Below, piece after piece: positions 9,633 to 42,487 of a stretch of DNA of 64,000 nucleotides. Below the pieces are notes generated by a model that was given only the letters and a program-made list of their open reading frames with translations, ran no database searches and was not told the origin of the DNA. The DNA is taken from positions 248,001 through 312,000 of the forward strand of contig JANWWC010000004.1 in the NCBI GenBank assembly GCA_025056215.1. Direction: 5' to 3'. Every line of letters begins with the position of its first letter. Position 1 is the stretch's first letter. The stretch is from Cytophagales bacterium (GTDB taxonomy: Bacteria; Bacteroidota; Bacteroidia; Cytophagales; Flammeovirgaceae). The translations under genes and the position numbers were made by a program.

Positions 9633-9766
9633 AGGTATCTGTAAAAATACGTATACACTAAGGTAAAAATACTGATTGTATCCGTGTTCATGAAGTTGCA
9701 ACTTTACGATATTATTAACCAATAAACAAACGAATATATACTTAATTAATAGGTTTTAGTGGAGGC

Positions 9767-9800
9767 AATCCCGGACAATGTTCGGGATTTTGCTTTTATA
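9767..9800 (+). terminator. Rho-independent terminator downstream of the glucosaminidase
   Basis: AATCCCG (9767-9773) pairs with CGGGATT (9783-9789) around a 9-base loop, followed by TTGCTTTTAT. The stretch 9633-9766 before it holds no gene I can support. Confidence 0.65.
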
Positions 9801-9891
9801 AAAGTCGTTCGTTTTTTTGCTTTGAGCCATCGAGTCATCTTTGTTGTATCTTAATCCCAGGCCTGCTTTCTCGTTGAGGCATTTTTTACTC

Positions 9892-9955
9892 TGTCATTTT
9901 GTTATGTCTTTTAGGAATTATTTAGAAATAATAATGAAGAATTGTCATTTTGTCA
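9892..9955 (+). promoter_or_regulatory. Repeated TGTCATTTTGT elements upstream of the groES promoter
   Basis: TGTCATTTTGTTA begins at 9892 and TGTCATTTTGTCA at 9943, 51 bases apart. The second copy is a tandem TGTCATTT/TGTCAGTT with an 8-base period. They lie about 50-110 bases upstream of the predicted start site, where an enhancer-binding activator of sigma-54 would sit. Their role as activator sites is inference. Confidence 0.5.
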
Positions 9956-9977
9956 GTTTTTTTTGTATTAAAAGGAA

Positions 9978-9992
9978 TGGCACGCTACTTGC
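9978..9992 (+). promoter_or_regulatory. Sigma-54 (RpoN) promoter of groES-groEL
   Basis: TGGCACG CTAC TTGC matches the -24/-12 consensus TGGCACGN4TTGC completely. The diagnostic GG (9979-9980) and GC (9991-9992) are separated by exactly 10 bases. A start near 10003 gives a leader of about 60 bases to the groES ATG. No TAnnTTTG element is present in the leader. Confidence 0.8.
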
Positions 9993-10063
9993 CTATCTAA
10001 AAAGTGAAACCTTTTCGCTTTTGCATAATTGGTTTTATAGTTTCACATCAAACGTTTAAAAAT

Positions 10064-10339
10064 ATGGCAGTAAAAGTAAAACCTTTATCCGACCGAGTAT
10101 TAGTAAAACCGGCACCTGCTGAAGAAAAAACAGCGTCAGGCATTATCATTCCTGATACTGCTAAAGAAAAGCCGCAACGCGGTGAAGTAGTAGCAGTCGG
10201 AACAGGCAAAAAAGATGAGCCTATGACTGTAAAAGTAGGAGATACTGTATTGTATGGCAAGTACTCTGGAACAGAAATCACTATTGATGGAGTAGAATAT
10301 CTCATCATGCGTGAGTCTGATATTTATGCAGTTATTTGA
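10064..10339 (+). CDS. groES: Co-chaperonin GroES
   Basis: 91 residues from ATG at 10064 ([18 protein letters not shown]); an in-frame ATG at 10004 would place the start inside the predicted transcription start region and adds non-homologous residues. The mobile-loop region ([18 protein letters not shown]) and the C-terminal [13 protein letters not shown] match GroES. It caps the GroEL folding chamber in the cytosol. It is the first gene of groES-groEL, 44 bases before groEL, behind a sigma-54 promoter. Confidence 0.97.
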
Positions 10340-10344
10340 TTTAA

Positions 10345-12018
<1,674 letters not shown>

Positions 12019-12038
12019 TCGCAAACTGCTCTAAAGAG

Positions 12039-12072
12039 GTCCCGATGCGTCGAGCATTGGGACTTTTTTATT
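12039..12072 (+). terminator. Rho-independent terminator of groESL
   Basis: GTCCCGATGC (12039-12048) pairs with GCATTGGGAC (12054-12063) around loop GTCGA with one G-T pair, followed by TTTTTTATTTT. It ends where the convergent gene's stop codon begins. Confidence 0.85.
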
Positions 12073-15000
12073 TTAGTCCTCTTTTACGACTTTGACAACG
12101 TACTTCTTGTTTTCAATTATTAAGTGAACAAAATAAACACCCCTAGGAAGAGTTTTGAGATTCAACTCTGTCGAACGCGCACCCTCTAAAATAGTTTTTC
12201 CGTGAACATCTGTTAGAAAAATATCAGAGATTTCGCTATTGGTTAAGATGGTAATTGCATTTTTTGTAGGATTAGGAAATATTGTAAAAGGAAGTAGAGA
12301 GGTGGAGCGTTCTGCTAATAGTCGCTCTACATTTATAAAAAAAGATTTTTCAAAAGAGAGTCCACCTTTGTCTGTCACTCGAATCCGTATCGAATAAGAA
12401 TTTTTGATGTCGTAATGAAATCTTTCAGAAGTTTGGAGTGAATTCCCTGAGATATAAAATGACAAATTGTCAGAATCTCCAGAGCCAGGAACTAAGCTAA
12501 AAGTAAAGTTTTCTAAAGTATCTACGTCAACAGCTGTGAGAGTTCCTACAATAGTAGGAATCGGGTTGTTTTCTGTAACAGACGTAGAAGAAAGGTGTAT
12601 GTTAGTAGGAATTTCGTTGATATCTGTAACTTGAATGAAAAAAACTTTTTCAAAAAATAATCCGCCTACGTCGGTAGCCCTTATCCGAATTGAGTACTGT
12701 TTTTTAGTTTCATAGTCGAAAATATGATTTGCTAAAAGTTGGTTTCCGCTAATTGTGAATTTAGAGTTATCTTCGCCTCCAACGCCGTTGACTAAGCTAA
12801 ACACAATTGTGTGCTGGTTAGTGTCCGTAGCAGTGAAAGTGCCAATTACTTGATTGACAGCATTGTTTTCGGAGATCGTAGCATTGCTTAGTATAATATT
12901 TGTAGGAGGTAAATTTATTTGGAACGATAGAAGTTTATCGTAATATCCTCCTTTGTTATCATCTCCTCGCACAAAGATTCGCCAGTGAAGATTTTCTGAT
13001 GCGGTGATTATGCGTCTGGTGTAGACAGAGTCTCTCGAGATACGGAATGCGTGGTTTTCCTGATTGCATTTTCCTGCCGAGTCGTACAACATAAATCGAT
13101 AAAAATCATTATCAGAATCGCTTGCAGATAATTTTCCTACGAAAGTATTTGCGGGCACACTATCTTGTAGAAGATGATGGGTCAAAAGAATATCAGTAGG
13201 CAACGCATTTGGAGTACCACAAGTAGAAAAAATGGGTGCGCTGCCGGTGTAATCGACTTTATAGCAATTTCCTGCACTATCGTTGATAAGCAATATACTA
13301 TTTTCGAGTTGAACGTATTTTCCTTTGAAAATAGCGCGCTGATAAGCATTCATCGGAACGCTATTGACGGTCCAAGTAGCCAATCTTCCGTTAGGGATTC
13401 CGTTAGGGAAAGTAGGTTGTATAAAAGGAGGAGATTTAGGAATAATTTGTTGAGTAGTAGGTCCATATCCCCAATCAAACATCGGCTCAGTAAAAGTTCC
13501 ACTTGGTTGATACTGTACTTGTAGCGTATCTCCTGCATAAGTGTAATACGTAATTTGATTAGAGCTTACTTGAGACTTATCTAATGAAATTTTAGGCAAA
13601 ACTTTTGTTTTAAAGTCGGTATAACCTGCAAAGTCTTCTGCATTGAATACTTCTACGACGAACCCAATAAGATTTCCTGTCGTTGCTGTATCTCGAAAAT
13701 AGTTGTACTGGGAATGAGAGGTGGTAACGATTGGCAAATTTTGAAATATGGATTTGACAGTAACGTACACTTTGGCGTACTGAATAATAAGCGTATTAGA
13801 AGAGTTATCTATTTCGAAGGTGGGAGGATTTGCGATATCTTTTCGATAACTAATAAAACTATGATTTCTGTTTAAAGAATTTGGCACTGCAATATTTACA
13901 GGGTTGGTGTTATCACCAGTTGGAAATCGTTGAACAAAGTCGTTGAACCAATTGCTTTGCCACGTCGTAAAAATGGATTGAATTGCGGATGTGTTGGGGG
14001 TTGTAGGTACTTTTGTCATTTGAACAAGTACATTTTTATATTGAGCAAATTGCTCAAAGGGTAAGCGCCTTTGTCCATCGAGATTAGTAGGATGTCCGCC
14101 GCTAATATTATATCCTCCATTTCCAGTTAAGATTTGAGCGGAATTGTTGCTCACGGTTCCCGATGAATCTACGCGCACTACTAACTTCCAGTTTAGAATT
14201 TGAGTGCTTCCACCGCCCCAACCCCCGTAGGGTGTATAAGCTGTTCCGAGCGTAAAATTTCTGTCTATATAGAAATCTGCTTGTACGTAACCGATACTAT
14301 CGAGCAAATAAGTAGGATAAGCTATCTTAAAATGAGCTTGTAAGCTTCTTTTTTGTGCTAATCGAACAACTGCCATCGGAGGGCGATAGGTACTAGTTGC
14401 AAAAAAGGCAGTAGGTAAAGGTAAATTAGAGCCTGGTGTAACAAAGCCAGGAAGTGCGTAGTTCCTAGGCGAATCGTCGAACCAGAGCCATCCTAAAAAA
14501 TCGGCTTCTCGATTGAAACTAAGCACTGAACTTCCGCGGCTACTGGCACCTCCGGTAATGCCTTGTGTGTAATAAATGGCTAGTTCTGTAGCATAATAAT
14601 CTAAAACTGCTTTAGCTGCTTGTTTGACTGCGGAGTCTCTAGCAAAATCGTATAGATTCACCCAGCCATGAATGTTGTAAGGATGATAAGTGTTCGAATT
14701 CCACTCACCTGTTCCAGCTTCATAAATTCTTTTGGCGAAGTAGAGTATCCATGTCTTCATTTCAGCCATGCGTAGAGAAGCGGTTGGATAGTCGTTAGGA
14801 TAGTGTTGAAGAGCATATTGGGCAAACAGATAGCCGCTTGTGCGGTTCATGTTTACATGGTTTTCTGTTCCTTCTCCTGTAAATGCATTGTATCTATCAT
14901 TGCGATTAAAAACTAAATTAAGATATTGACGTTTGACATTGTCCGTGAATCCAGGATTGCAAGGATATAAGTAAAGGAGTCGGATGAGTCCTGGAAAATT

Positions 15001-15300
15001 AAAGTGGAATAAGTCGCAATTTACTGCATAAAAAATCATTCTATTAGCAACGACGGTATCCATAGGATTTTGGTTGAGCCTTCCCATAAAGGCAGGATGA
15101 AAGAACTTTCCGTAGTCTCCTGCTCCAGTGCAGGTAAAGCCACTGCTGCCAGGTTGCTGTCTTCGGGAAAGGGTGTCTAACAAAAGCCTAGCGCGGAATT
15201 GGAAACCTGTCTCATAATCTTGTGCGTTTGTACAGATGCTTCCAAAGAGTATAGAAAAAAATAAAAAATGCGCTTTCCTCATCAGATTTTTCATTTTCAT
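12073..15300 (-). CDS. Large secreted protein: toroid-like N-domain, cadherin-like repeats, T9SS tail
   Basis: 1075 residues with a signal peptide (MKNLMRKAHFLFFSILFG, ending near TNAQ). Residues about 90-290 are helical with motifs such as GTGEWNSNTYHPYNIHGW and FLGWLWFDDSPRNY, resembling an alpha/alpha-toroid as in heparinase/alginate-lyase-type enzymes; a catalytic set cannot be assigned. A beta-rich stretch follows. Residues about 790-985 hold two cadherin-like repeats, each with the pattern ENN...VGTxTAxD then SIRIRxTDxGGLxFEKxFFI. The last ~75 residues (FPNPTKNAITI ... LPRGVYFVHLI) are a T9SS type A sorting domain, so the protein is exported across the outer membrane by type IX secretion. 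It is probably a polysaccharide-active or adhesive surface protein and shares a leftward cluster with a TPR protein. Confidence 0.75.
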   Translation of the reverse strand: MKMKNLMRKAHFLFFSILFGSICTNAQDYETGFQFRARLLLDTLSRRQQPGSSGFTCTGAGDYGKFFHPAFMGRLNQNPMDTVVANRMIFYAVNCDLFHFNFPGLIRLLYLYPCNPGFTDNVKRQYLNLVFNRNDRYNAFTGEGTENHVNMNRTSGYLFAQYALQHYPNDYPTASLRMAEMKTWILYFAKRIYEAGTGEWNSNTYHPYNIHGWVNLYDFARDSAVKQAAKAVLDYYATELAIYYTQGITGGASSRGSSVLSFNREADFLGWLWFDDSPRNYALPGFVTPGSNLPLPTAFFATSTYRPPMAVVRLAQKRSLQAHFKIAYPTYLLDSIGYVQADFYIDRNFTLGTAYTPYGGWGGGSTQILNWKLVVRVDSSGTVSNNSAQILTGNGGYNISGGHPTNLDGQRRLPFEQFAQYKNVLVQMTKVPTTPNTSAIQSIFTTWQSNWFNDFVQRFPTGDNTNPVNIAVPNSLNRNHSFISYRKDIANPPTFEIDNSSNTLIIQYAKVYVTVKSIFQNLPIVTTSHSQYNYFRDTATTGNLIGFVVEVFNAEDFAGYTDFKTKVLPKISLDKSQVSSNQITYYTYAGDTLQVQYQPSGTFTEPMFDWGYGPTTQQIIPKSPPFIQPTFPNGIPNGRLATWTVNSVPMNAYQRAIFKGKYVQLENSILLINDSAGNCYKVDYTGSAPIFSTCGTPNALPTDILLTHHLLQDSVPANTFVGKLSASDSDNDFYRFMLYDSAGKCNQENHAFRISRDSVYTRRIITASENLHWRIFVRGDDNKGGYYDKLLSFQINLPPTNIILSNATISENNAVNQVIGTFTATDTNQHTIVFSLVNGVGGEDNSKFTISGNQLLANHIFDYETKKQYSIRIRATDVGGLFFEKVFFIQVTDINEIPTNIHLSSTSVTENNPIPTIVGTLTAVDVDTLENFTFSLVPGSGDSDNLSFYISGNSLQTSERFHYDIKNSYSIRIRVTDKGGLSFEKSFFINVERLLAERSTSLLPFTIFPNPTKNAITILTNSEISDIFLTDVHGKTILEGARSTELNLKTLPRGVYFVHLIIENKKYVVKVVKED

Positions 15301-18103: not shown

Positions 18104-18261
18104 AAGTGGTTTTGTTTTGAAATCTAAGCAAATTTCGAAGGTGAGAATTTTGTAAAAATCTTTAAAAATTCGAAGAAATTGTATTTCTTACTCTTAACAA
18201 CATTTTCGAAATGTTTTTCGTTATCAGTGTAGAGTTGTAAAATGGAATCTGAAATTCTTTG

Positions 18262-21200
18262 ATGATGGAAAGATTACTAAGAACTTTGAAAACTTTAATA
18301 TGGTTGCTTTCTTTTGGTGTGAGTGCCCAGACTCGTTTTTTACCACTTCCTGACGAGCCTATTCAACCAGAAAAAGTTCAACCAGGCAAAGTAGTAGCTT
18401 ACTTTACGGAAGAACCGAACGACAACATTATACAAGTTCTTTCTCAATATCGTGTAACGCAACTCAGGCAACTATTCCCTCCTGATAAGCGTATCAATGC
18501 TCCTAAGCCTCCCCAACATCTTAGAAGAATTCATCAGTGGTATGAAATCAGCTACGAGAGCAGTATTTCTCCGCATGAATTTTCGGCTATTCTAATGAAG
18601 TATTGGTTTGTAGAATATGCGGAGCCGCGTCCATATGTTCGAGTTTTAGGTGTAGAAGATATCCAAGTTTCTCCTCCGAACGACCCTCACAAAGGATGGG
18701 GACTAGACTCTTCGCGCGTTTACGATGCATGGGATGCTTCAATGGGCGATTCTAATCAGGTAATTGCTGTTTTGGATTATGGAATTAATGTAAATAGCCC
18801 AGACTTTACGCAACAACTTAAACGAAATTGGGCCGAAATCAATGGTATAAGTGGTGTAGACGATGATTTAAACGGTTACATAGACGACACAGTAGGCTAC
18901 AACGTAGCTTCTAATTCTCCTAATGTAAATGATGTAGCGCCAGGACACGGCACTGAAGTAGCAGGCGTAGCCTTAGGGTGTATCAACAATAACTTTGGAG
19001 TTGCGGGAACTTGCCCAGAGTGTCGCCTATTGCCTGTTGCTATTTTTAGCTACACTAATACAGCTATCGAAGAAGGAATTTATTATGCAGCGCTGAATGG
19101 CGCTAAAATTATCAATCTTTCTTTCGAAAATGTAAACGTGTACACTGCTGACTATCGCCCGGGCTATTATCAGTTTCAACAAGATTTAATTACATATCTT
19201 ACAGAAACTTATGATATTTTGTTTGTAGCTGCTGCAGGAAATACGTATTGGTTTCGAGATACTTACCCAGCAAGCTATAAAGACGTAGTATCTGTTACGA
19301 TGGCACAGCAAGATAAAAACGTTTATACTTTTAACGGACAAATTGGCGCTTTTGGAGGAACTAACAGCTACTACGTGGATTTGTTAGCACCTGGAGCAAA
19401 TTTACCTTTGCTTCAAAAAAATGGAACGGTTATTTATGGAAACGGTACTTCTTATGCATCGCCTTTTGTAGCGGGCATAGCAGGATTGTTAAGATCTAAA
19501 TATCCAACTCTTAAAGCAAGGCAAATTGCAGAACTTCTTCGCATCACAGCAGACACGTCGGTTTATCAACTCCCTAACAACGCAGATAAGCGCGATCGTT
19601 TAGGATATGGATTTCTTCGCGCTGATAAGGCTATTGCTCAAGCCTATCCGTCGCCAGCAGTGCGAGCCGATGAAATTTTCATTCGAAATCTTTCTAAACC
19701 GCTTTATGGAAGCCAACTCTTTCCAGGTGATACATTTTTGATTAGTGCTAAGTTTATCAATTATCTTGGTTCAACATCCGATAGTATTACGCTCAGGCTA
19801 CGGAGTACTACTCCTTACATGGTATTAATTGACAGCGTTTTGAAGATAAAACCTTTGAATACATTAGATACTGCTTACTCTGGCTTTTTCAAAGCCAGGT
19901 TGCTTACAGCAGATACTGTTAATAAAATTTTATTTTATACAAGAATTGGCTACGAGTCGGGTACTTATAAAGATTGGCAATATTTTGATTTTCAAGTAAC
20001 TCCTGCTCATTACGTTCCTCGCGTGCAAGGCTCAGGACAAATTATTAAATATGCTGTATTTTTTAGTGAGTTGTATTATACAGGGCTTCGCATTATGGGC
20101 GATGGAACATTAGGCTATTTTGACAGCACTTATACAGGCAATGAAAATGGCTATCGTTGGGCAATTGGTTATTCAGGTACTACTCCTCCTACTTACCCCA
20201 TCACTCAATGGGGGCGCCAATGGCTCTACAAAAGTGGTTTGATGATAGGAAAAAGCCCTTCGCAGGTTTCTGATGCTGTGTATTTTACAAATGGAAGTGT
20301 TCAAAAAGATTTTCGTAGAGTGCGCTTCCCTAAACAGTATAGAAATGATTATAAAGAAGTCAGCGTAATTTCTGTTTACGATGATTCGGTTGCCTCCAAT
20401 CCGATTGGTGTAGAAGTTACGGAAAAGCTAGTGGCGCTCAACGAAGGGCATTTAGCTAATAGCGTCGTCATAGAATATGATGTAAAAAATATTTCCACCG
20501 TGCCTTTCGATTCGCTTATGATAGGTCTTTATACTGACTGGACATTCCCCTCAGGAGATAGTATTGCCCGTTGGGACAGCGCAGGAAAATTCGGATTTTC
20601 GCGCGGCTCTCACTTTTGGGCAACTGTTAGACCTTTAGCAAGAGAGTATCAGTACTTTGCTTTGGATAAACCTAATGTAGGAGGGGATAATATCAACATC
20701 ACAGATAATTTTTCTGATGCAGAAAAATTTCATTCTCTTACTACTACAAGAGCACAAGCAGGTGTGGGAGATGTAGCCATGATTACCACTATAAAAGTTC
20801 GCAATCTGGCACCAGGCGAATCGCAGCTTGTAGTTTTTCATGTGAATTTAGATTCTATTCATTCTCAAATGATAGCTGCTAACAACAGTACTACGCTGCA
20901 AAATCGCTATAAAAGCGATAAGCCAGTAGTTTCTAAGCGCACTTTTTGCCCGATAGGCTCTACTATTTTGCAGACCGACAATAAAAAACGATTTGAACTT
21001 TATGACCATCCATCTCTTTTACAGCCTATTTATGTAGGAAGTCAGTTTGCTTTTACTGCCGCAGATACTTCCAAAACGTTTTATATGCGCGCTATTACGA
21101 GTGCTCTTCCGAGTGATACACTCATTTTAAAACTTAAATTAGATACATCTGTTTGTGAAAACATATGGAACGGCACTTTATGGAGCTTAGGTGTCAATCC

Positions 21201-22671
21201 TACTGACAAAATGAAGGTGATTCTCAATCATAACTACCCAAACAATCAACCGGGCCAAGGTTCTTTTTCTTGCAATAAGTTGATTATTACTCCTTCAGCC
21301 ACACTTACAATTTTGCCACATCATACCATTTTGGTAAAAGACACTTTGAGAAATAACGGGAGCATTGTAGTAACAGACTCAGGCTCTTTAGTGCAAACCC
21401 AAGGAAGTGTCTACACAGGGACAGGTAGTTTTACAGCTTTAAAAAGGGGATTTACAGGATTGCGATATAACTATTGGAGTAGTCCTGTACAAAACGCACC
21501 ATTATCACTTTTTACAAAAGTCTACTGGTATAATGAAGCATTAAATGTAGATTTTGAGAAAGACTGGATTGTGCCTACTGGAAATATGGTTTCTGGAAGA
21601 GGATACGCTGCCGTTGGTGCTGGATTGAGAACTTTCAGCGGATTGCCTCATAATGGAAACATTAGTATTCCAGTAACTCATACTCCTACAAGTCCCATCA
21701 ATATTCCTGCTCAAAATGGTTGGAATTTGGTAGGAAATCCGTATCCTAGTGCTATTCGAGTGGATAGTTTTATTTTACATAATTTGCCTTTGTTAACTTC
21801 TGGGGCTCTCTACTTTTGGGACGATGACAATTCTGGCGGAGGGTATTCTTCTGCAGACTATGCTGTTCGGACAATTGCTACAGGCTTGAGCGGCGCAGGA
21901 GGGCGAACTCCAGGCATTACTATTGCTTCGTGTCAAGGATTTTTCTTGCAGACTCACTCAAATGGAAGCATACAATTTACGAACGCAATGCGAACAAGCG
22001 GAGGAAATAGTCAGTTTTTTAGAACTGAATCCCAATCGCAAGAAGAACTCCTTATTCGCCTTTCGAACGCTGATCAAGTAGTTTCGCAGACTCTTGTGCT
22101 TCTGCGCGACGATGCAACAGATAGTTTTGATATCTTATTGGATGCTCCTAAATTTCTGACTACCTCCAAACATCATATTTACACTTTGTTAGATACTCAG
22201 CGCTTAGCTATTCAAGCGTTTTCCCCTCAAATAGAAATGATTCCGTTAGGAATAACTGGAAACGCAGGTATATATCAACTTAGCCTTATAACTCAAAATT
22301 CTTCTCGGAGGTGGTCTTTGTTTGATGCTAGAAATGGCAGCAGATTAATTCTCCCAGAAAATCAAAGCATTACTATTTATCATCCTGGCAATACATTAGA
22401 GAACAGGTTATTTTTGCGAGTGGAAACAACTGAAAGTGTGTTAAAGGCAGAGCATTCTTCGTTTGTGCCATTGTTGGCATATGTCAGCCAAGAGCATTTA
22501 ATAATTGAAGTGCCTTGCGGTACAGAAGTTCGTATGTACGATATTGCTGGAAGGTTGATTACTGCTGCAACAGCCCAGGAGAACTTTGCTAAAGTTCCGA
22601 TCGCTACTCTTCCATCGGGTGTTTATTTGATTAAATCAGCAGATGGAAGAACTGCAAAATGGCAGAAATAA
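18262..22671 (+). CDS. Secreted subtilisin-like protease with T9SS sorting domain
   Basis: 1469 residues from ATG at 18262 (TTG at 18259 and ATG at 18265 are alternatives). Signal peptide near residues 1-22 (ending SAQ). A propeptide-like region (VQPGKVVAYFTEEPNDN) precedes an S8 subtilase domain. The catalytic triad is visible: Asp172 in IAVLDYGI, His229 in PGHGTEVAG and Ser397 in GNGTSYASP, with the oxyanion Asn in AAAGN. A long beta-rich region of about 1000 residues follows, including GNxxSG-type strand repeats. The end (MYDIAGRLI ... LPSGVYLIKSADGR) is a T9SS type A sorting domain. It is a cell-surface or secreted protease and may degrade extracellular protein. It is followed by two genes for exported carbohydrate-active-like proteins. 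Confidence 0.92.
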   Translation: MMERLLRTLKTLIWLLSFGVSAQTRFLPLPDEPIQPEKVQPGKVVAYFTEEPNDNIIQVLSQYRVTQLRQLFPPDKRINAPKPPQHLRRIHQWYEISYESSISPHEFSAILMKYWFVEYAEPRPYVRVLGVEDIQVSPPNDPHKGWGLDSSRVYDAWDASMGDSNQVIAVLDYGINVNSPDFTQQLKRNWAEINGISGVDDDLNGYIDDTVGYNVASNSPNVNDVAPGHGTEVAGVALGCINNNFGVAGTCPECRLLPVAIFSYTNTAIEEGIYYAALNGAKIINLSFENVNVYTADYRPGYYQFQQDLITYLTETYDILFVAAAGNTYWFRDTYPASYKDVVSVTMAQQDKNVYTFNGQIGAFGGTNSYYVDLLAPGANLPLLQKNGTVIYGNGTSYASPFVAGIAGLLRSKYPTLKARQIAELLRITADTSVYQLPNNADKRDRLGYGFLRADKAIAQAYPSPAVRADEIFIRNLSKPLYGSQLFPGDTFLISAKFINYLGSTSDSITLRLRSTTPYMVLIDSVLKIKPLNTLDTAYSGFFKARLLTADTVNKILFYTRIGYESGTYKDWQYFDFQVTPAHYVPRVQGSGQIIKYAVFFSELYYTGLRIMGDGTLGYFDSTYTGNENGYRWAIGYSGTTPPTYPITQWGRQWLYKSGLMIGKSPSQVSDAVYFTNGSVQKDFRRVRFPKQYRNDYKEVSVISVYDDSVASNPIGVEVTEKLVALNEGHLANSVVIEYDVKNISTVPFDSLMIGLYTDWTFPSGDSIARWDSAGKFGFSRGSHFWATVRPLAREYQYFALDKPNVGGDNINITDNFSDAEKFHSLTTTRAQAGVGDVAMITTIKVRNLAPGESQLVVFHVNLDSIHSQMIAANNSTTLQNRYKSDKPVVSKRTFCPIGSTILQTDNKKRFELYDHPSLLQPIYVGSQFAFTAADTSKTFYMRAITSALPSDTLILKLKLDTSVCENIWNGTLWSLGVNPTDKMKVILNHNYPNNQPGQGSFSCNKLIITPSATLTILPHHTILVKDTLRNNGSIVVTDSGSLVQTQGSVYTGTGSFTALKRGFTGLRYNYWSSPVQNAPLSLFTKVYWYNEALNVDFEKDWIVPTGNMVSGRGYAAVGAGLRTFSGLPHNGNISIPVTHTPTSPINIPAQNGWNLVGNPYPSAIRVDSFILHNLPLLTSGALYFWDDDNSGGGYSSADYAVRTIATGLSGAGGRTPGITIASCQGFFLQTHSNGSIQFTNAMRTSGGNSQFFRTESQSQEELLIRLSNADQVVSQTLVLLRDDATDSFDILLDAPKFLTTSKHHIYTLLDTQRLAIQAFSPQIEMIPLGITGNAGIYQLSLITQNSSRRWSLFDARNGSRLILPENQSITIYHPGNTLENRLFLRVETTESVLKAEHSSFVPLLAYVSQEHLIIEVPCGTEVRMYDIAGRLITAATAQENFAKVPIATLPSGVYLIKSADGRTAKWQK

Positions 22672-22730: not shown

Positions 22731-25343
22731 ATGAATCAACAGCGAAGAGACTTTCTTAAAAAAGTAGCCTTTTCTGCCACCGCTGTCAGTTTTTCACCAT
22801 GGTTTTTTTTGCGTGCTCAAGAAAGGTGTGTGAGTGAGAATCATCCGCTATTTTCTTTTATCAATCAAAAGAGCGGAGAACGTCCTGTATATAGCTGGCT
22901 AAATTGTGAAGATTTGTATTATCACGAAGGAAGTATTCCAGAAAAATGGGCTTCTGCACCAGAGTTTGTAGCCTTATTAGGCAAAAATCATACTTTTAAT
23001 AAATCCTTTCGATGGATTCGCCATTCGCCTAATATTCTTGCTTATTCCGAAGGAGATTCGCTTTATCTGACGGGTGAACAACGCGCAAGTGAATGGTTCT
23101 CAGATGAAAAAAACAACATTTTACATAAAAATCGAATATGCATTTGGCAAAAGAGAAGCAATTGCCGCGCAAAAGATGGTATCGTGTTGCCTACTTTTCA
23201 AATCTGCTTGTTGCAGCACCCTGTTTTAAAGCTATCTGTTCAAGCATCATCTCAAACCGAGTGGCAATTTTCGATAGCTTTAAAAGGGCGCGCCGGATTG
23301 CCACTCATTGTATCGGAATGGCAGAAAGGTTCACAGAATCTTACTTTTGAAATTGCGAAAACCTTACAAAAAAAGGGCTATACTCTTCATTATGCAGAAC
23401 TTCATTTTGCTTTGTGTGTATGGACAGAAAAGCCTGAAAAAAATGCTGAAATTCAATTTGTTGCTTATTTCCCTACTCAAATGGCTCTTGTGCCCTGCTT
23501 GCCTGTTATTGTTCAACAAAACCAAGAAATTCCATTAAGTGCTATCTTAGCAGATAAAACGGGCAAACCAATTTCCTCTCGAAGTTTATTAGTAACGATT
23601 CAAGAAAAAACACAAGTTTTACAGTTTCGGAACGGGTTGTATGCTGGTCGTTTTGAGAGTTTGCCAGTTGGCAATTATGAAGCTGTTTTTTCAGCAGAAG
23701 GCTTGGCGCCTGTCAAACAGATAGTTAGAGTAACTGACGGAATTTTTTGTACATTTGATAAATCGCAAAATATTATTTACAAAGCCAATACTCCTATTTC
23801 TCCTCTAACGGGCTCCTTTCAAGGAATTGTATATGTCCGAGAAGTGGGAACAGAAAATGAAAAAATTATCAATACACAAGAAGAATACCAGCAGTGGAAA
23901 GAAACAGATAAGCACTATCATTATTGGGAATCTCTGACAGAAAAAGAACTTGCTTATCGTTTTAAATATTTACAAATGTGTGGCTGGAACGTTTTACATA
24001 TCTGTCAGCATTGGTCGAGTTGGATACGCTTTGATGCGGGTGGAAATATATCTCCTTTTGCAACTGAACAATTGGCATTATACATTCGTACTGCTGAAAA
24101 ATATGGATTGCGCGTGATGATAGCTCTGACGCATTATCCGTATTATGATAATCAAGTATGGAAAACGTACAAGGAAACTGGTTATCAAGAAAAACTTCAT
24201 TGGCAAAATCCCCAAACAAATCCTGCATTTGAGAAACTTTTTGAGCAATATCTTTCTGATATTGGAATATTTTTAAAATACGAAACGAATATTTTAGCTG
24301 TTTCTGCTTCGGGAGAAGGCGACCATAACGAAGCTACGGGGCTTTTGCGCGCACAACACATCATTCAACATTTTAAAAAGCAAGCGCCTTATCACCTTGT
24401 AATTGGAGAACCCATTTGGTACTATTTTGAGCGAGGCTTACCAGCCACCCAAATTGAAGGTTGGCAAATGCAGGACATTCTCGGCTCTCGAACTTATGGA
24501 CTCGGAAAGACCTTTGCGCCTGAATTAGAAATAGGCGTTTATTTTCGCCTTAATCAGATGTTTCCTAATATCAACATGTTAGAGGGTTCTTTTCCAGCTC
24601 CCGAGATTTATTCGCGGTTTTATTATCCGTCTGACTCAGACTTACATCGCTCTTGGATAGGCACGCGTATGCATCGCCTTAATTTGCGCGATAGCCTTTA
24701 TATCGGGCTTACCCGAAAACCAGCTCTCTTGATGACATGGGAAGAATATCTGACAGAAGACGAAAGAATCGTGATGCACGAATTAAAAAAAATCATCAAA
24801 TTTCATTTACCCATTTATCCCACAACCGTAGCAGTTTGCATTGTGCCAGAGCACCAAACTTTCCGATTAAAAGAACTGACCGACATTGAAGAGCAGTTTA
24901 CTCAAAAACAAATTATGAATTATCGCTATATTACTTCTCCTGAGGAGGCGCGCCCTGATGAATTTTTGCTCGATATCAGAGAAAAGTTTCAGTGGGCAGG
25001 TTTTCAATCGGAAGGGGGAATAATGCCAGATAGTTTCAGAGATAGAATCCCAATGTTTGTAAGCAATGGTTATGCGGTTTCTTTTGCAGAGAACGATGAA
25101 CACTTATGGGCGTATTGTTATAATGTAAGAGGTTATAAAAAACATGAGGCTCTTTATGCGCGTTTTCATCGGAATCCGCTTCCAGAAAATTTGGAAATTC
25201 GTTTTAAAGCATCTCTTGAAGGAAGAAAGTTTTTATTATTTAGTTTGAATCAAAAACAGATTTTTTTGGAGGGAGTTGTAGGCAAAACTCCTGTTCGTTG
25301 CGAGCAAAGCACCGATGATTTTGTGTTGGTTGTAATTAAATAA
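22731..25343 (+). CDS. Tat-exported protein with glycoside-hydrolase-like barrel
   Basis: 870 residues. The N-terminus QQRRDFLKKVAFSATAVSF is a twin-arginine signal, so the protein should be exported folded. Residues about 30-330 look like beta-sandwich ligand-binding domains. Residues about 395-700 look like a TIM barrel: YLQMCGWNVLHICQHW, YGLRVMIALTHYPYYDNQVW, FLKYETNILAVSASGEGDHNEA (a candidate acid/base Glu in GEGDHNE) and NINMLEGSFPAPEIY, with a late WEEYLTEDER. It resembles GH2/GH5-like enzymes, but I cannot place it in a family. It stops 3 bases before the GH59-like gene, so both are probably one transcript and may act on the same glycan. Confidence 0.7.
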   Translation: MNQQRRDFLKKVAFSATAVSFSPWFFLRAQERCVSENHPLFSFINQKSGERPVYSWLNCEDLYYHEGSIPEKWASAPEFVALLGKNHTFNKSFRWIRHSPNILAYSEGDSLYLTGEQRASEWFSDEKNNILHKNRICIWQKRSNCRAKDGIVLPTFQICLLQHPVLKLSVQASSQTEWQFSIALKGRAGLPLIVSEWQKGSQNLTFEIAKTLQKKGYTLHYAELHFALCVWTEKPEKNAEIQFVAYFPTQMALVPCLPVIVQQNQEIPLSAILADKTGKPISSRSLLVTIQEKTQVLQFRNGLYAGRFESLPVGNYEAVFSAEGLAPVKQIVRVTDGIFCTFDKSQNIIYKANTPISPLTGSFQGIVYVREVGTENEKIINTQEEYQQWKETDKHYHYWESLTEKELAYRFKYLQMCGWNVLHICQHWSSWIRFDAGGNISPFATEQLALYIRTAEKYGLRVMIALTHYPYYDNQVWKTYKETGYQEKLHWQNPQTNPAFEKLFEQYLSDIGIFLKYETNILAVSASGEGDHNEATGLLRAQHIIQHFKKQAPYHLVIGEPIWYYFERGLPATQIEGWQMQDILGSRTYGLGKTFAPELEIGVYFRLNQMFPNINMLEGSFPAPEIYSRFYYPSDSDLHRSWIGTRMHRLNLRDSLYIGLTRKPALLMTWEEYLTEDERIVMHELKKIIKFHLPIYPTTVAVCIVPEHQTFRLKELTDIEEQFTQKQIMNYRYITSPEEARPDEFLLDIREKFQWAGFQSEGGIMPDSFRDRIPMFVSNGYAVSFAENDEHLWAYCYNVRGYKKHEALYARFHRNPLPENLEIRFKASLEGRKFLLFSLNQKQIFLEGVVGKTPVRCEQSTDDFVLVVIK

Positions 25344-25346
25344 AAA

Positions 25347-27593
25347 ATGAAGAAATTTGTTTTGTTCTATTGCTTTTTTCAATTCTATCGAGTGGGAATA
25401 AGTCAGACATTGCCGCATATAATTCCGATAGATTTTCAGGACAGCGGTCGCATGTTTTTAGGAATTTGCGGGGTGAATGCAGGAGGGTGCGTAGGGCGTT
25501 TGCTTCCGCATTATCCCGAACCTCAAAGAAGTCAAATTTTAGATTTGTTATTTAAGCCTTATTACGGTGCATCACTTCATGCCTATAAGGCTGAGATTGG
25601 GGGAGATTACAATTCTACCGAAGGTGCGGAGCCTTCTCACGCGCGTTTTCCTGAAGACCGCAATTTTCAACGTGGGTTTCAATGGTGGTTCATGAAAGAA
25701 GCCAAAAAAAGAAATCCGAATATTCAACTTTATGCGTTGGCTTGGAATTATCCGTCTTGGCTTGGGGAAGTTAATTCAGAAGCCACTGTTAACTATTTGA
25801 TTGACTATTTAAAGGGCGCCAAACAGCAACATGGCTTAGAGATTGACTACATCGGCATTTGGAATGAAACCAAAGTAGATTATCGCTTTATTAAGTTGCT
25901 CAAAAAAAAAATTATAGAAAACGGACTTAAAACCAAAATCATTGCAGACGACTTAGTAAATTGGTGGGCAATCGCCGATAGCATGATGATAGACAAAGAG
26001 TTGTACGACGCTGTGGATATTGTTTCAACCCATTATCCTGTTTTTCAGAGTTCAGAAACTGCCAAGCGACTCGGAAAACCTCTTTGTGCGAGCGAGGATG
26101 GTCCTTGGGGAGATGAGTGGGGTATTTCTGGCAGAGTATCTGCTCCGTTAGCCAAATTGTTGAATAGAAATTATATAGAAGGAAAAATCACTTCTACACA
26201 TATTTGGAACATGGTCTCAGCGTATTATGATGTTTTAGAGCTTCCTCGCTCTGGATTGTTGCGAGCTATGTCTCCATGGTCAGGGCACTATGAGCCTATG
26301 TCTGGTATGTGGGTAGTTGCTCATACGACGCAATTTTCGAAAATAGGGTGGTATTACGCAGATAACGCTTGCGGTTATTTGCCAAAGGGAGGAAGCTACG
26401 TAACCCTGCACGATAGGAAAAAGCATTTTTCTACCATTTTTGAAACACTTGATGCTGCAGATACTCAAACTGTCGTGCTTCGCGTACCCGCTAAGGTGCG
26501 TAAAATTTATGTATGGCAAACCACTCCTTCTGAGTATTTCCAAAAAATAGCTACTTTGTGTCCTAAAGACCAGCAAGTCACTTTTAAAATTTCGCCGAAC
26601 GCTGTTTATACTTTTTCTACCACTACAGGGCAACGCAAAGGTAGTCCGCCTCCTCCTCCTTTAGATACTATGTTAGCACTTCCTTATGAAGATGATTTTG
26701 AAGCTTATTCGTTAGGAAACACTTTGCCAAAATATTTTATTGAGCAAAATGGCTCTTATGAAATTCATCGCGCTCCTCAAAGAGAAGGAAAGTGCTTAAG
26801 ACAGGTGGTCAATACGCATGCTATTCCTTGGATTTATGGAAAAGATTCATACCGATTCGGCACATTGAGCATTATAGGAGATAGAAGATGGAACAACTAC
26901 GCAGTAAGCGCAGATGTGTTTTTAGAAGAAAAAGGGTATGCGAGTGTAGTAGCTCGCCTTTCTTCATCTTCTTCTGATGGAATTATGCGAGCGTATCAGT
27001 TGAGGCTCTACGACGACGGCACTTGGAAACTCTTGACTGGTAATGAACTTCCTGCTCTAGATTCAGGAAATGTTTCTTCTGCTCTCTTAAATTGGAGGAA
27101 ACTTCGTTTAGAATGCGAAAAAAATAGAATTCGTGCATTTATTGACAATACAAAAGTAACAGAAATAGAAGATAAAACGCATGTGTATGGATTGGCAGGT
27201 ATCGGGAACGATTTCAATAAAGGTTGTTATGATAACTTTAAGGTAGAGCCCTTAGAGGGAGTTCCTGTAGTAATGCCCGACTTGTTGGCGGGTTATTATG
27301 CTGAATATGCGCCAGAGACTCCTACACTTTATATTCCGAATCCGTCGGAAGGGAAGGTTAGATTGGCGTGGAGCAAGGTCGAAAATGCAGCAGGATATAA
27401 AATTGCAATTGGTACAGAAGAGAATAAATTCGATAATATATTCGATGTCGGAAACAAAACGGAGTATACAGTATGGACGCTTTCTCAAGATAAAACTTAT
27501 TGGTTTTATGTAATTGCTTACAATTCTAAAGGGGAGAGTGCTCCTTCTAACAAAATGCAAGCTACCATAGGCAGAGATGTGCCGACTCGATAA
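25347..27593 (+). CDS. Secreted GH59 galactocerebrosidase (GALC)-like glycoside hydrolase
   Basis: 748 residues with a signal peptide ending near GISQ. Residues about 35-430 follow vertebrate GALC closely in pattern: RLLPHYPEPQRSQILDLLFKP, GASLHAYKAEIGGD, GAEPSH, FMKEAKKRNPNI, IDYIGIWNE and ASEDGPW, then WSGHYEPMSGMWVVAHTTQF and GWYYADNACGYLPKGGSYVTL. The acid/base candidate is Glu174 and the nucleophile Glu250, 76 residues apart, as I recall for mouse GALC. Residues about 440-635 are a concanavalin/LamG-like domain, also present in GALC, and about 655-745 an FN3 domain not found in GALC. No T9SS tail is seen. Expected activity: retaining beta-galactosidase on galactolipid-like or other beta-galactosides; the substrate is inference. 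Confidence 0.88.
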   Translation: MKKFVLFYCFFQFYRVGISQTLPHIIPIDFQDSGRMFLGICGVNAGGCVGRLLPHYPEPQRSQILDLLFKPYYGASLHAYKAEIGGDYNSTEGAEPSHARFPEDRNFQRGFQWWFMKEAKKRNPNIQLYALAWNYPSWLGEVNSEATVNYLIDYLKGAKQQHGLEIDYIGIWNETKVDYRFIKLLKKKIIENGLKTKIIADDLVNWWAIADSMMIDKELYDAVDIVSTHYPVFQSSETAKRLGKPLCASEDGPWGDEWGISGRVSAPLAKLLNRNYIEGKITSTHIWNMVSAYYDVLELPRSGLLRAMSPWSGHYEPMSGMWVVAHTTQFSKIGWYYADNACGYLPKGGSYVTLHDRKKHFSTIFETLDAADTQTVVLRVPAKVRKIYVWQTTPSEYFQKIATLCPKDQQVTFKISPNAVYTFSTTTGQRKGSPPPPPLDTMLALPYEDDFEAYSLGNTLPKYFIEQNGSYEIHRAPQREGKCLRQVVNTHAIPWIYGKDSYRFGTLSIIGDRRWNNYAVSADVFLEEKGYASVVARLSSSSSDGIMRAYQLRLYDDGTWKLLTGNELPALDSGNVSSALLNWRKLRLECEKNRIRAFIDNTKVTEIEDKTHVYGLAGIGNDFNKGCYDNFKVEPLEGVPVVMPDLLAGYYAEYAPETPTLYIPNPSEGKVRLAWSKVENAAGYKIAIGTEENKFDNIFDVGNKTEYTVWTLSQDKTYWFYVIAYNSKGESAPSNKMQATIGRDVPTR

Positions 27594-27638
27594 GGTTAAA
27601 AATATGTGAAATTCAAAAAAGATTTCTGCAAATGTGTT

Positions 27639-27646
27639 TACCTTTG
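27639..27646 (+). promoter_or_regulatory. Bacteroidota -7 element (TACCTTTG) before carA
   Basis: TACCTTTG lies 21 bases before ATG at 27667. It overlaps the region after an in-frame GTG at 27634, so transcripts starting near 27652 exclude that codon and support the ATG. A matching TTG upstream is not obvious. Confidence 0.5.
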
Positions 27647-27666
27647 TTAGCTTAACACAACAACTT

Positions 27667-28779
27667 ATGCAGACGATAAAATTCTTAGAGCGAAAAAAAG
27701 CAGTTTTGTTACTCGAGGATGGAACTACTTTTTACGGAATCTCTATCGGAAAGAAAGGAACCACTAGCGGAGAGTTATGTTTTAATACAGGCATGACAGG
27801 CTATCAAGAAATCTATACTGACCCTTCTTATTTTGGGCAAATTGTGATCAATACTACTGCTCATATTGGAAACTATGGAGTGAAAGCAAACGAAGTGGAA
27901 TCAGATTCTGTAAAAATTGCTGGATTAGTAGTAAAAAATTTTTCTCATGTCTATTCGCGATATGAGGCAGCGAGTAGCTTGCAACAATACCTTGAAGAAT
28001 TTCATATAGTTGGAATTGCAGAGATTGATACGCGAATGTTAGTGCGCCATATTCGGCAAAAAGGTGCTATGAACGGAATTATCTCATCGGAAGTGTTTGA
28101 AATAGAAGAACTTAAAAAAATGCTTGCAAAAGTACCGAGTATGGCAGGATTAGAACTTTCTTCTAAAGTATCTACTCGACAAATTTACGATGTTGGAGAG
28201 CCTTCTGCTCCGTTACGCGTAGCAGTATTAGATTTGGGAATTAAAAAAAATATTCTTCGCAATTTAGTGAGCCGCGGCGTGTATTGCCGTGTTTTTCCGA
28301 TGGATACGCCTTTTGAGGTCATCCAAAATTTTCAGCCCGATGGTTATTTTATTTCAAATGGTCCTGGAGATCCTGCTGCTATGCCTGCCACTACTCAAAA
28401 AGTAAAACAGATGCTCATGACCGAAAAACCACTTTTTGGGATTTGCTTAGGACATCAGATTTTGGCACAAGCTGTCGGGGTTTCTACTTATAAAATGCAT
28501 CATGGTCATAGAGGATGTAATCATCCAGTAAAAAATTTGCTTACAGGAAAAGCAGAAATCACTTCTCAAAACCATGGCTTTGCTGTTTCTGCAGAAGATA
28601 TTCAAAAAAATCCTGATGTAGAAGTTACACATATCAATCTAAATGATAACACTATTGAAGGAATTCGCTTAAAAAGAAAGCGCGCTTTCTCAGTGCAATA
28701 TCACCCTGAATCTGCACCAGGGCCTCATGATTCGCGATATTTATTTGATTCTTTTGTAATGATGATGAAAGATCAATAA
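27667..28779 (+). CDS. carA: Carbamoyl-phosphate synthase small (glutaminase) subunit
   Basis: 370 residues from ATG at 27667. The N-terminal CPSase small domain (KKAVLLLEDGTTFYG, GYQEIYTDPSYFGQIV, NYGV) precedes a class I amidotransferase domain with catalytic Cys in GICLGHQILAQ and the His/Glu pair in YHPESAPGPHD. It releases ammonia from glutamine for carbamoyl phosphate synthesis (pyrimidines and arginine). The large subunit carB is not in the window. It is followed after 3 bases by an unrelated M23 peptidase gene. Confidence 0.96.
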   Translation: MQTIKFLERKKAVLLLEDGTTFYGISIGKKGTTSGELCFNTGMTGYQEIYTDPSYFGQIVINTTAHIGNYGVKANEVESDSVKIAGLVVKNFSHVYSRYEAASSLQQYLEEFHIVGIAEIDTRMLVRHIRQKGAMNGIISSEVFEIEELKKMLAKVPSMAGLELSSKVSTRQIYDVGEPSAPLRVAVLDLGIKKNILRNLVSRGVYCRVFPMDTPFEVIQNFQPDGYFISNGPGDPAAMPATTQKVKQMLMTEKPLFGICLGHQILAQAVGVSTYKMHHGHRGCNHPVKNLLTGKAEITSQNHGFAVSAEDIQKNPDVEVTHINLNDNTIEGIRLKRKRAFSVQYHPESAPGPHDSRYLFDSFVMMMKDQ

Positions 28780-40510: not shown

Positions 40511-40542
40511 AAAAGTAGAGAGGAGCAAATATTTCTCCTCTC
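40511..40542 (-). terminator. Rho-independent terminator of the susD gene
   Basis: GAGAGGAG (40535-40542 on the minus strand) pairs with CTCCTCTC (40518-40525) around a 9-base loop, then CTACTTTTTTATAA on the minus strand. It overlaps the susD stop codon. Confidence 0.8.
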
Positions 40543-42487
40543 AGCGGATAGCATTTCGATTGGTATTTTCTTCTTCTAATGGAACACGGCTATAATATAA
40601 ACGCGGATCATCCCAACTGATATTTCCAGGAAAAGAGCCTGGCTGAATTTTGTTTTTGTCGGGGAACGTAATAGGAGCACCATCTGCCTGATTTCGAATC
40701 ATCATATAAAACAAGCGGTCTTCTTCGAAAGCTAGTTCTATCATGCGTTCTCGGTCGAGAGCATCTAATCCAGTAGCGTTATAGAGTGGCTGTCCGTCGT
40801 CGTAGCGTGCGGCGCGCAACGGATTAAGATAATACTCGATTGAATTTTTTCCAGTCTTAGTAGCACAATACGCGGCGGTCAGATAGGCTTCTGCTATTCT
40901 GAACAAAGGATGATTGAAACATCTTGATTGACCTGCATTAGCAGGATAGCGAATATATCCTTTAAAATTTTCATTGTATTTCATGCACCAAATAGCTGCT
41001 GGACGAGAGCCAACACGTGAGTTTTCAGTATTAAGAAATGCCTGATGTGGATTAGGGTTATCTACTATGCCGTCTTCTCTATCGCCGAGCCAATCAATGT
41101 AGTAAATAGGATCGTGGAAAGCAGTGTCTGGAGAGCTGTTATCGTATCTTTGCCATAATCCGTTGCTTATCCAAGCGCGATCATAGCCTTTTACATTCAC
41201 TTGCTGCCCGTTGATAGTAAGCGTTCCGCCTAAAATTCCATCTCTATCGTCTCCTGCAATAAGGTCGTTAGCTGGCTGATTTTCTCTTTTGGCAAATAAG
41301 TCATAAAAGCGAGTAAGAGTATATTTTCCATATCTTTTATCTTTTGTGGCGCGTTGATGAGCTACAACACTTTTCAAGTCTGATACATCGCCCCAGCCAG
41401 AGAGTTCTAAAAATTTGTTGCTAAGCGCTAAGATTTTATCTCGATTAGAAGGTTGTGGTGGTTTTCGGTTGGGCCAATAATACCACGGGTAGCGATATAC
41501 GGTGCCTAAGGCATTAAATTGCAGGTCATTGATAAGGCGCGTAGAAATGCGCGTGTGTTGAGCAAATTGAAAAACTACCTCGCGAGAGCGTCCGTTAGCG
41601 CGCCCGAAGCCTGTTACTTCATTTGAAGCTGTAAAAGCGTCATTCACATCATCTTCAAAGCCGTAGTTTCCGCTTGAAATTAAAATATCGGCTTGTTCTT
41701 GAGCTTTTGCCCATTGCCCCATATGAAAATAGACGCGCATGGCTAAAAATCTTGCAGCATCTTTATTAGCTCTGTCGCGGTAGGAGTTAGGTCCATATTT
41801 GGCAGTATTAGTAATTTGTTCGCGAAGGTCTGGCAATAGCTCAATAGCTTTTTCTACGTCTTCTACAATTTGTTGATAAGCTCTCCCAACAGTTACGCGA
41901 GGAGAATTTAAAGAAGTAGAAGTGCGAAGAATAATAGAGGGTTGTCCTTCGTTATTAGCGGGATTGGTAAAATCGTAAGGTCTTCCGAACATTCTTACCA
42001 AATTAAAATGGCAAAAGGCGCGATAAAAATAAGCTTCTCCTAATATGCGAGGTACCCAACTTCGGTTGGCATCATCAAATCCTTGAAAATTGGTAGAAGC
42101 TAATATTTCAATTGCTTTATTGGCAGTTGCTAACATCATATAATGAGAAAACCAAGCGTCTTCTACAGTTGTTCCAGTATTGTTATTAGTATTTCCAAAA
42201 TACATGTTGCGAATATCTTCATCTGCTTTTTCTACATACAAATAACCTTCGTCAGAGGCTAAAACAGCGCGGTGATGAAAATGAGAAATGCTTTGTTTGC
42301 TGTTTCCTGTCATTAAAAAGTATGTACCAGCTACTAATTGATCTACATCGGCATTGCTTCGCCAACTATCTCCTCGAAGGCTCGATTGCCCTTGTGCGTC
42401 GTCAAAGAATTTTTGTTCTTTACAGGATGTTGTTGCTAATAAAAGCAAGCCAACTGTTCCTACAACTTGAATGAAGTTCATTTTCAT
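40541..42487 (-). CDS. RagB/SusD-family outer-membrane lipoprotein (orphan)
   Basis: 648 residues. Lipoprotein signal with the lipidated Cys22 (LLLLATTSCKEQ). SusD-type TPR architecture: DAWFSHYMMLATANKAIEIL, AYFYRAFCHFNLVRMFGRP, and a C-terminal FRIAEAYLTAAYCATKTGK ... REEMIEL-like RERMIELAFEEDRLFYMMI. SusD proteins sit on the outer membrane and cap a SusC TonB-dependent channel, delivering glycans or other nutrients. No SusC gene adjoins it, and the next gene upstream is an unrelated CBS-domain protein, so its channel partner is elsewhere. Confidence 0.92.
   Translation of the reverse strand: MKMNFIQVVGTVGLLLLATTSCKEQKFFDDAQGQSSLRGDSWRSNADVDQLVAGTYFLMTGNSKQSISHFHHRAVLASDEGYLYVEKADEDIRNMYFGNTNNNTGTTVEDAWFSHYMMLATANKAIEILASTNFQGFDDANRSWVPRILGEAYFYRAFCHFNLVRMFGRPYDFTNPANNEGQPSIILRTSTSLNSPRVTVGRAYQQIVEDVEKAIELLPDLREQITNTAKYGPNSYRDRANKDAARFLAMRVYFHMGQWAKAQEQADILISSGNYGFEDDVNDAFTASNEVTGFGRANGRSREVVFQFAQHTRISTRLINDLQFNALGTVYRYPWYYWPNRKPPQPSNRDKILALSNKFLELSGWGDVSDLKSVVAHQRATKDKRYGKYTLTRFYDLFAKRENQPANDLIAGDDRDGILGGTLTINGQQVNVKGYDRAWISNGLWQRYDNSSPDTAFHDPIYYIDWLGDREDGIVDNPNPHQAFLNTENSRVGSRPAAIWCMKYNENFKGYIRYPANAGQSRCFNHPLFRIAEAYLTAAYCATKTGKNSIEYYLNPLRAARYDDGQPLYNATGLDALDRERMIELAFEEDRLFYMMIRNQADGAPITFPDKNKIQPGSFPGNISWDDPRLYYSRVPLEEENTNRNAIR

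Follow-up and report, generated by a model that had tools for sequence, protein, structure and literature searches.

A predicted secreted bacterial family 59 glycoside hydrolase related to galactocerebrosidase, encoded beside an unclassified protein in a Cytophagales genome

The gene at positions 25347..27593 of the forward strand in a 64,000-nucleotide stretch of a Cytophagales genome (the whole stretch is called the window here) encodes a genuine bacterial member of glycoside hydrolase family 59 (GH59), a cousin of galactocerebrosidase (GALC), which digests galactolipids in humans. We propose, with a probability of roughly 60%, that its product is a secreted retaining exo-beta-galactosidase whose substrate is most likely the beta-galactosyl end of a glycan. 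To our knowledge, nearly all that is known of GH59 comes from the lysosomal enzyme that is lost in Krabbe disease. Its bacterial branch is large and, as far as the open-access literature shows, biochemically uncharacterised, a search of that literature having returned no characterised bacterial GH59 enzyme.

The open reading frame starts with ATG and encodes 748 residues. Its N-terminus, MKKFVLFYCFFQFYRVGISQ, reads by eye like a signal peptide at about residues 1-20 (KK, a hydrophobic stretch and ISQ), so that the secreted form proposed in the first-pass annotation is predicted here as well. Pfam searches showed that Glyco_hydro_59 (PF02057) matches over its whole length, profile positions 1-294 of 294, at the TIM barrel (residues 37-329; E 2.6e-96, 322.8 bits). 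The lectin domain follows at residues 466-634 (Glyco_hydro_59_C, E 8.8e-17), and a shortened beta-sandwich between the two is touched by a partial match to Glyco_hydro_59M (residues 341-372, E 3.2e-7). A C-terminal FN3 domain was found at 27339..27563 on the forward strand (residues 665-739; Pfam fn3, E 6.2e-6, 26.8 bits against a cut-off of 25). The FN3 domain is thus an addition as first described, but the "LamG" domain listed with it is the lectin domain that GH59 proteins natively carry at the C-terminus. The motif blocks quoted as GALC-like, YPEPQRSQILDLLFKP, EIGGD, IWNE and SED, are all present in the frame. A T9SS sorting tail (Por_Secre_tail) was not found in the protein by Pfam, and two large secreted proteins nearby in the window do carry one, namely an S8 subtilase (18259-22671, forward strand) and a cadherin-domain protein (12073-15300, reverse strand).

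Among PDB structures, mouse GALC was the sole relative by sequence (E 3.4e-115, residues 29-634). A structure model built on 43 bacterial sequences reached a mean pLDDT of 82.6; its FN3 stretch scored only about 36, a low value that probably reflects the small number of relatives extending over it. The predicted fold contains the three-part architecture of GALC (TIM barrel, beta-sandwich and C-terminal lectin domain), and superposed on mouse GALC (3zr5_A) with E 2.6e-64, a TM-score of 0.89 on the GALC length, 2.4 A and 35% identity. The next-best family in the fold search was GH30 (TMt 0.54-0.80), which ranked after all GALC entries. Membership of GH59 is therefore borne out by the Pfam profile, the PDB sequence match and the predicted fold together. 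A GH30 identity was considered and ruled out, since GH30 structures rank below GALC and the protein has no GH30 Pfam match.

The two glutamates named as catalytic, 76 residues apart, align with GALC E182 and E258. They are E174 (codon 25866..25868, forward strand), the predicted acid/base, and E250 (codon 26094..26096, forward strand), the predicted nucleophile, and each is glutamate in 82 of 82 bacterial relatives. The galactose ligands of GALC, including R380 and S261, have been listed, and W291 has been credited with the preference for galactose over glucose (PMC4445328). The alignment showed that T93, W135, N181, E182, E258, W291 and W524 of GALC are kept as T91, W133, N173, E174, E250, W287 and W495. 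S261 is replaced by P253, as it is replaced mostly by proline among the bacterial relatives, and the 14-residue loop carrying R380 is absent from the protein and from 82/82 relatives, so that the complete set of GALC galactose ligands is not present. This comparison covered 83 bacterial sequences including the window protein, with mouse GALC as the only animal reference. The gap in all 82 relatives makes it a property of the sampled bacterial branch, beyond the window gene alone.

A scan of one genome per species returned 441 confirmed places encoding GH59 relatives. The best 80 of these 441, which were kept, lie mostly in Acidobacteriota, and also in Verrucomicrobiota, Bacteroidota, Actinomycetota, Chloroflexota and others. 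A bacterial form, which had been presented as notable, is thus widespread across phyla, and a secreted multidomain bacterial GH59 protein had already been published. In a Terriglobia genome (locus L040), two GH59 genes stand back to back (9758-11884 and 11884-13887, forward strand) on separate branches of the tree. Within 395 genomes of the window's own phylum, a strong full-length match was found in only three, the window genome included; the 71 formal matches in this sample are mostly weak, and the weak ones are probably GH30-like. GH59 was absent from 17 other genomes of the same family, in which only FN3 matches appeared. GH59 as a lineage trait was ruled out on these two counts (0/17 and 3/395). 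The patchy distribution suggests that the gene was gained by transfer or lost elsewhere. In the tree, the window sequence forms a long branch (1.78) without a starred group, so no donor can be named. The protein adds a divergent new member to a known family with many bacterial representatives. It departs from the relatives at 15 of 120 near-invariant columns, the median departure being 3, and W247C, three residues before the nucleophile E250, is among these changes; its activity could therefore be altered. A weakly active or inactive protein kept for binding would fit these departures and the branch length, but we regard it as very improbable, with both glutamates, N173 and all tested galactose-facing aromatic residues intact and the frame open.

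Genes within four positions of GH59 were clustered at 76 other loci, and one representative of each cluster was scanned. The recurrent neighbours were an MFS sugar transporter (19), a DUF5107/TPR protein (17), an outer-membrane barrel (11), GH30_2 (10), a LacI regulator (10), PD40 (7), GH5 (5), a GH63-like protein (4) and a sulfatase (3). In an uncultured Bacteroidia bacterium (L043:2619-6005, forward strand), a sulfatase bearing the Ser-type motif SSPTR and GH59 are encoded in a single open frame of 1129 residues. Breakdown of glycans is favoured by these neighbour clusters and by the fusion, and targeting to carbohydrates would suit the ricin-type lectin modules found in relatives from Streptomyces and Ktedonobacteria. 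In the lysosomal sulfatide route, arylsulfatase A acts first and GALC follows; the sulfatase-GH59 pairing recalls this order, only as an analogy. Since none of the bacterial sequences compared has the R380 loop, the -1 subsite might instead accept a sugar other than plain galactose, such as a modified form of it or a related sugar in beta linkage; this would agree with the frequent proline at S261 and with the sulfatases fused to or adjoining several GH59 genes. We consider this unlikely, given that the equivalents of W291, T93 and W135 are conserved and that the window genome has a single sulfatase gene, on another contig.

In GALC, S146, R520 and T523 contact saposin A (SapA) (PMC5764952). 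The corresponding residues of the window protein, V142, H491 and P494, differ at all three contacts compared. A search of its own genome for saposin (PF03489) gave no match, the control being equally silent. The galactolipid or sphingolipid substrate suggested at first has gained no positive evidence, and the three changed contacts, the missing R380 loop and the polysaccharide-type context of the relatives tell against it. A secreted, saposin-independent hydrolase of glycolipids (galactosylceramide, psychosine, MGDG or bacterial galactosyl lipids) could still draw on the predicted GALC fold, the retained catalytic residues, the galactose-specificity tryptophan and the equivalent of lectin residue W524; we judge it unlikely, as the relatives are flanked by polysaccharide genes and no lipid genes were seen adjoining the window GH59 gene.

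No PUL was found around the window gene itself, a point against the glycan reading. Its nearest genes encode the S8 protease, an orphan protein of 870 residues, carA and, as read by eye, an M23-type peptidase. A SusD-like gene 13 kb away (40541-42487, reverse strand) adjoins an ABC transporter and a CNNM/CBS protein, and no SusC gene was identified beside it; the genome gave only one further SusD match. On the downstream side, a pattern search found a box resembling the Bacteroidota -7 element, TACCTTTG, at 27639..27646 (forward strand) before carA (27634-28779, forward strand), a pattern whose 98 occurrences in the window scarcely exceed the 83 expected by chance. The listed GTG start of carA is probably wrong, an in-frame ATG lying at 27667, downstream of the box. 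This arrangement suggests that carA has its own promoter and gives a weak indication that the transcription unit of GH59 stops short of the box.

The 870-residue protein (22731..25343, forward strand) ends three bases upstream of the GH59 start and begins, by eye, with a Tat-type secretion signal (RRDFLKK). Against Pfam it returned nothing but noise, even with the threshold at E 10, and no T9SS Por_Secre_tail; NCBIfam and the PDB gave no match either. In overlapping samples, no homologue appeared in 58 relatives, 390 genomes of the order, or 395 genomes of the phylum apart from one doubtful 134-residue stretch with stops, nor in 72,556 plasmid records. A strong homologue was found in one of 29 GH59-bearing genomes and in none of 50 further ones (1/79). 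It belongs to an uncultured Bacteroidia bacterium (the genome of L042), is full-length (E 2.1e-191, 42% identity) and sits in a same-strand run (L121/L122) with SusC, SusD, an MFS transporter and a GH63/MGH1-like glycosidase; the latter showed no match at E 1e-4 to the GH63-like proteins beside other GH59 genes. The motifs SASGEGD, GEPI and MLEGSFPAP are common to the two proteins, with ASGEGD, GEPI and MLEGSFPAP identical, and by their sequence they resemble the strand ends at which a TIM barrel carries its carboxylates, a fold that a single-sequence model (pLDDT 35) was too poor to confirm. That this protein acts on glycans and belongs to a new family is a reasonable guess; it may represent an undescribed glycoside hydrolase family. 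Within the operon that it would share with GH59, it is probably the second secreted enzyme to act on glycans. More tentatively, the pair might form a two-enzyme glycan-cleaving operon, in which the 870-residue protein founds a new glycoside hydrolase family and the entire bacterial GH59 branch, without the R380 loop, has a specificity unlike that of GALC, for glycan beta-galactosides; the former would then possibly be a TIM barrel between beta domains, with E529 and E618 as candidate glutamates.

By analogy with GALC, E174 would protonate the glycosidic oxygen, a covalent galactosyl intermediate would form on E250, and galactose would be released. The retained W287 would favour galactose over glucose. 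As the R380 loop is missing, the grip on galactose would partly be made differently, and the pocket would probably be more open. The natural substrate would most likely be the beta-galactosyl end of a plant or algal galactan, an arabinogalactan or a glycoconjugate, and a saposin-presented sphingolipid would be less likely than a glycan. We favour the glycan because the recurrent neighbours are of polysaccharide type, the R380 loop is gone, the SapA contacts are not conserved, and the homologue of the 870-residue protein sits in a SusC/SusD locus. The less ordinary features are the loop missing from the compared bacterial sequences and the unclassified gene next door; together with the fusion of a sulfatase to GH59, they merit following up. 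None of the 83 bacterial sequences has the loop with its galactose ligand, which permits a direct test of GH59 substrates outside animals; a soluble, saposin-independent GH59 could be easy to express, and the adjoining orphan could be a new CAZy family.

Compared with GALC (PDB 3zr5, 4ccc, 5nxb), the window protein has the same three-domain fold at about 35% identity, both catalytic glutamates and the equivalents of W135, W291, N181, T93 and W524. It differs by the missing R380 loop, P253 in place of S261, the changed SapA contacts R520, T523 and S146, the extra C-terminal FN3 domain, and bacterial secretion where GALC undergoes lysosomal sorting. The GH59 proteins of Acidobacteriota, Verrucomicrobiota, Bacteroidota, Streptomyces and Ktedonobacteria have the same domains over residues 26-634 at 35-44% identity and likewise lack the R380 loop, whereas some of them carry ricin-type lectin, T9SS tail or sulfatase modules rather than FN3, and the window protein stands on its long branch without a close relative. 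Protein 4665 of Paenibacillus sp. JDR-2 (GH59/CBM6/BIG4/BIG3/3SLH, annotated as a beta-galactosidase), compared by its description rather than its sequence, is likewise a secreted multidomain bacterial GH59 protein, with SLH domains and CBM6 where the window protein has FN3 (PMC4765114).
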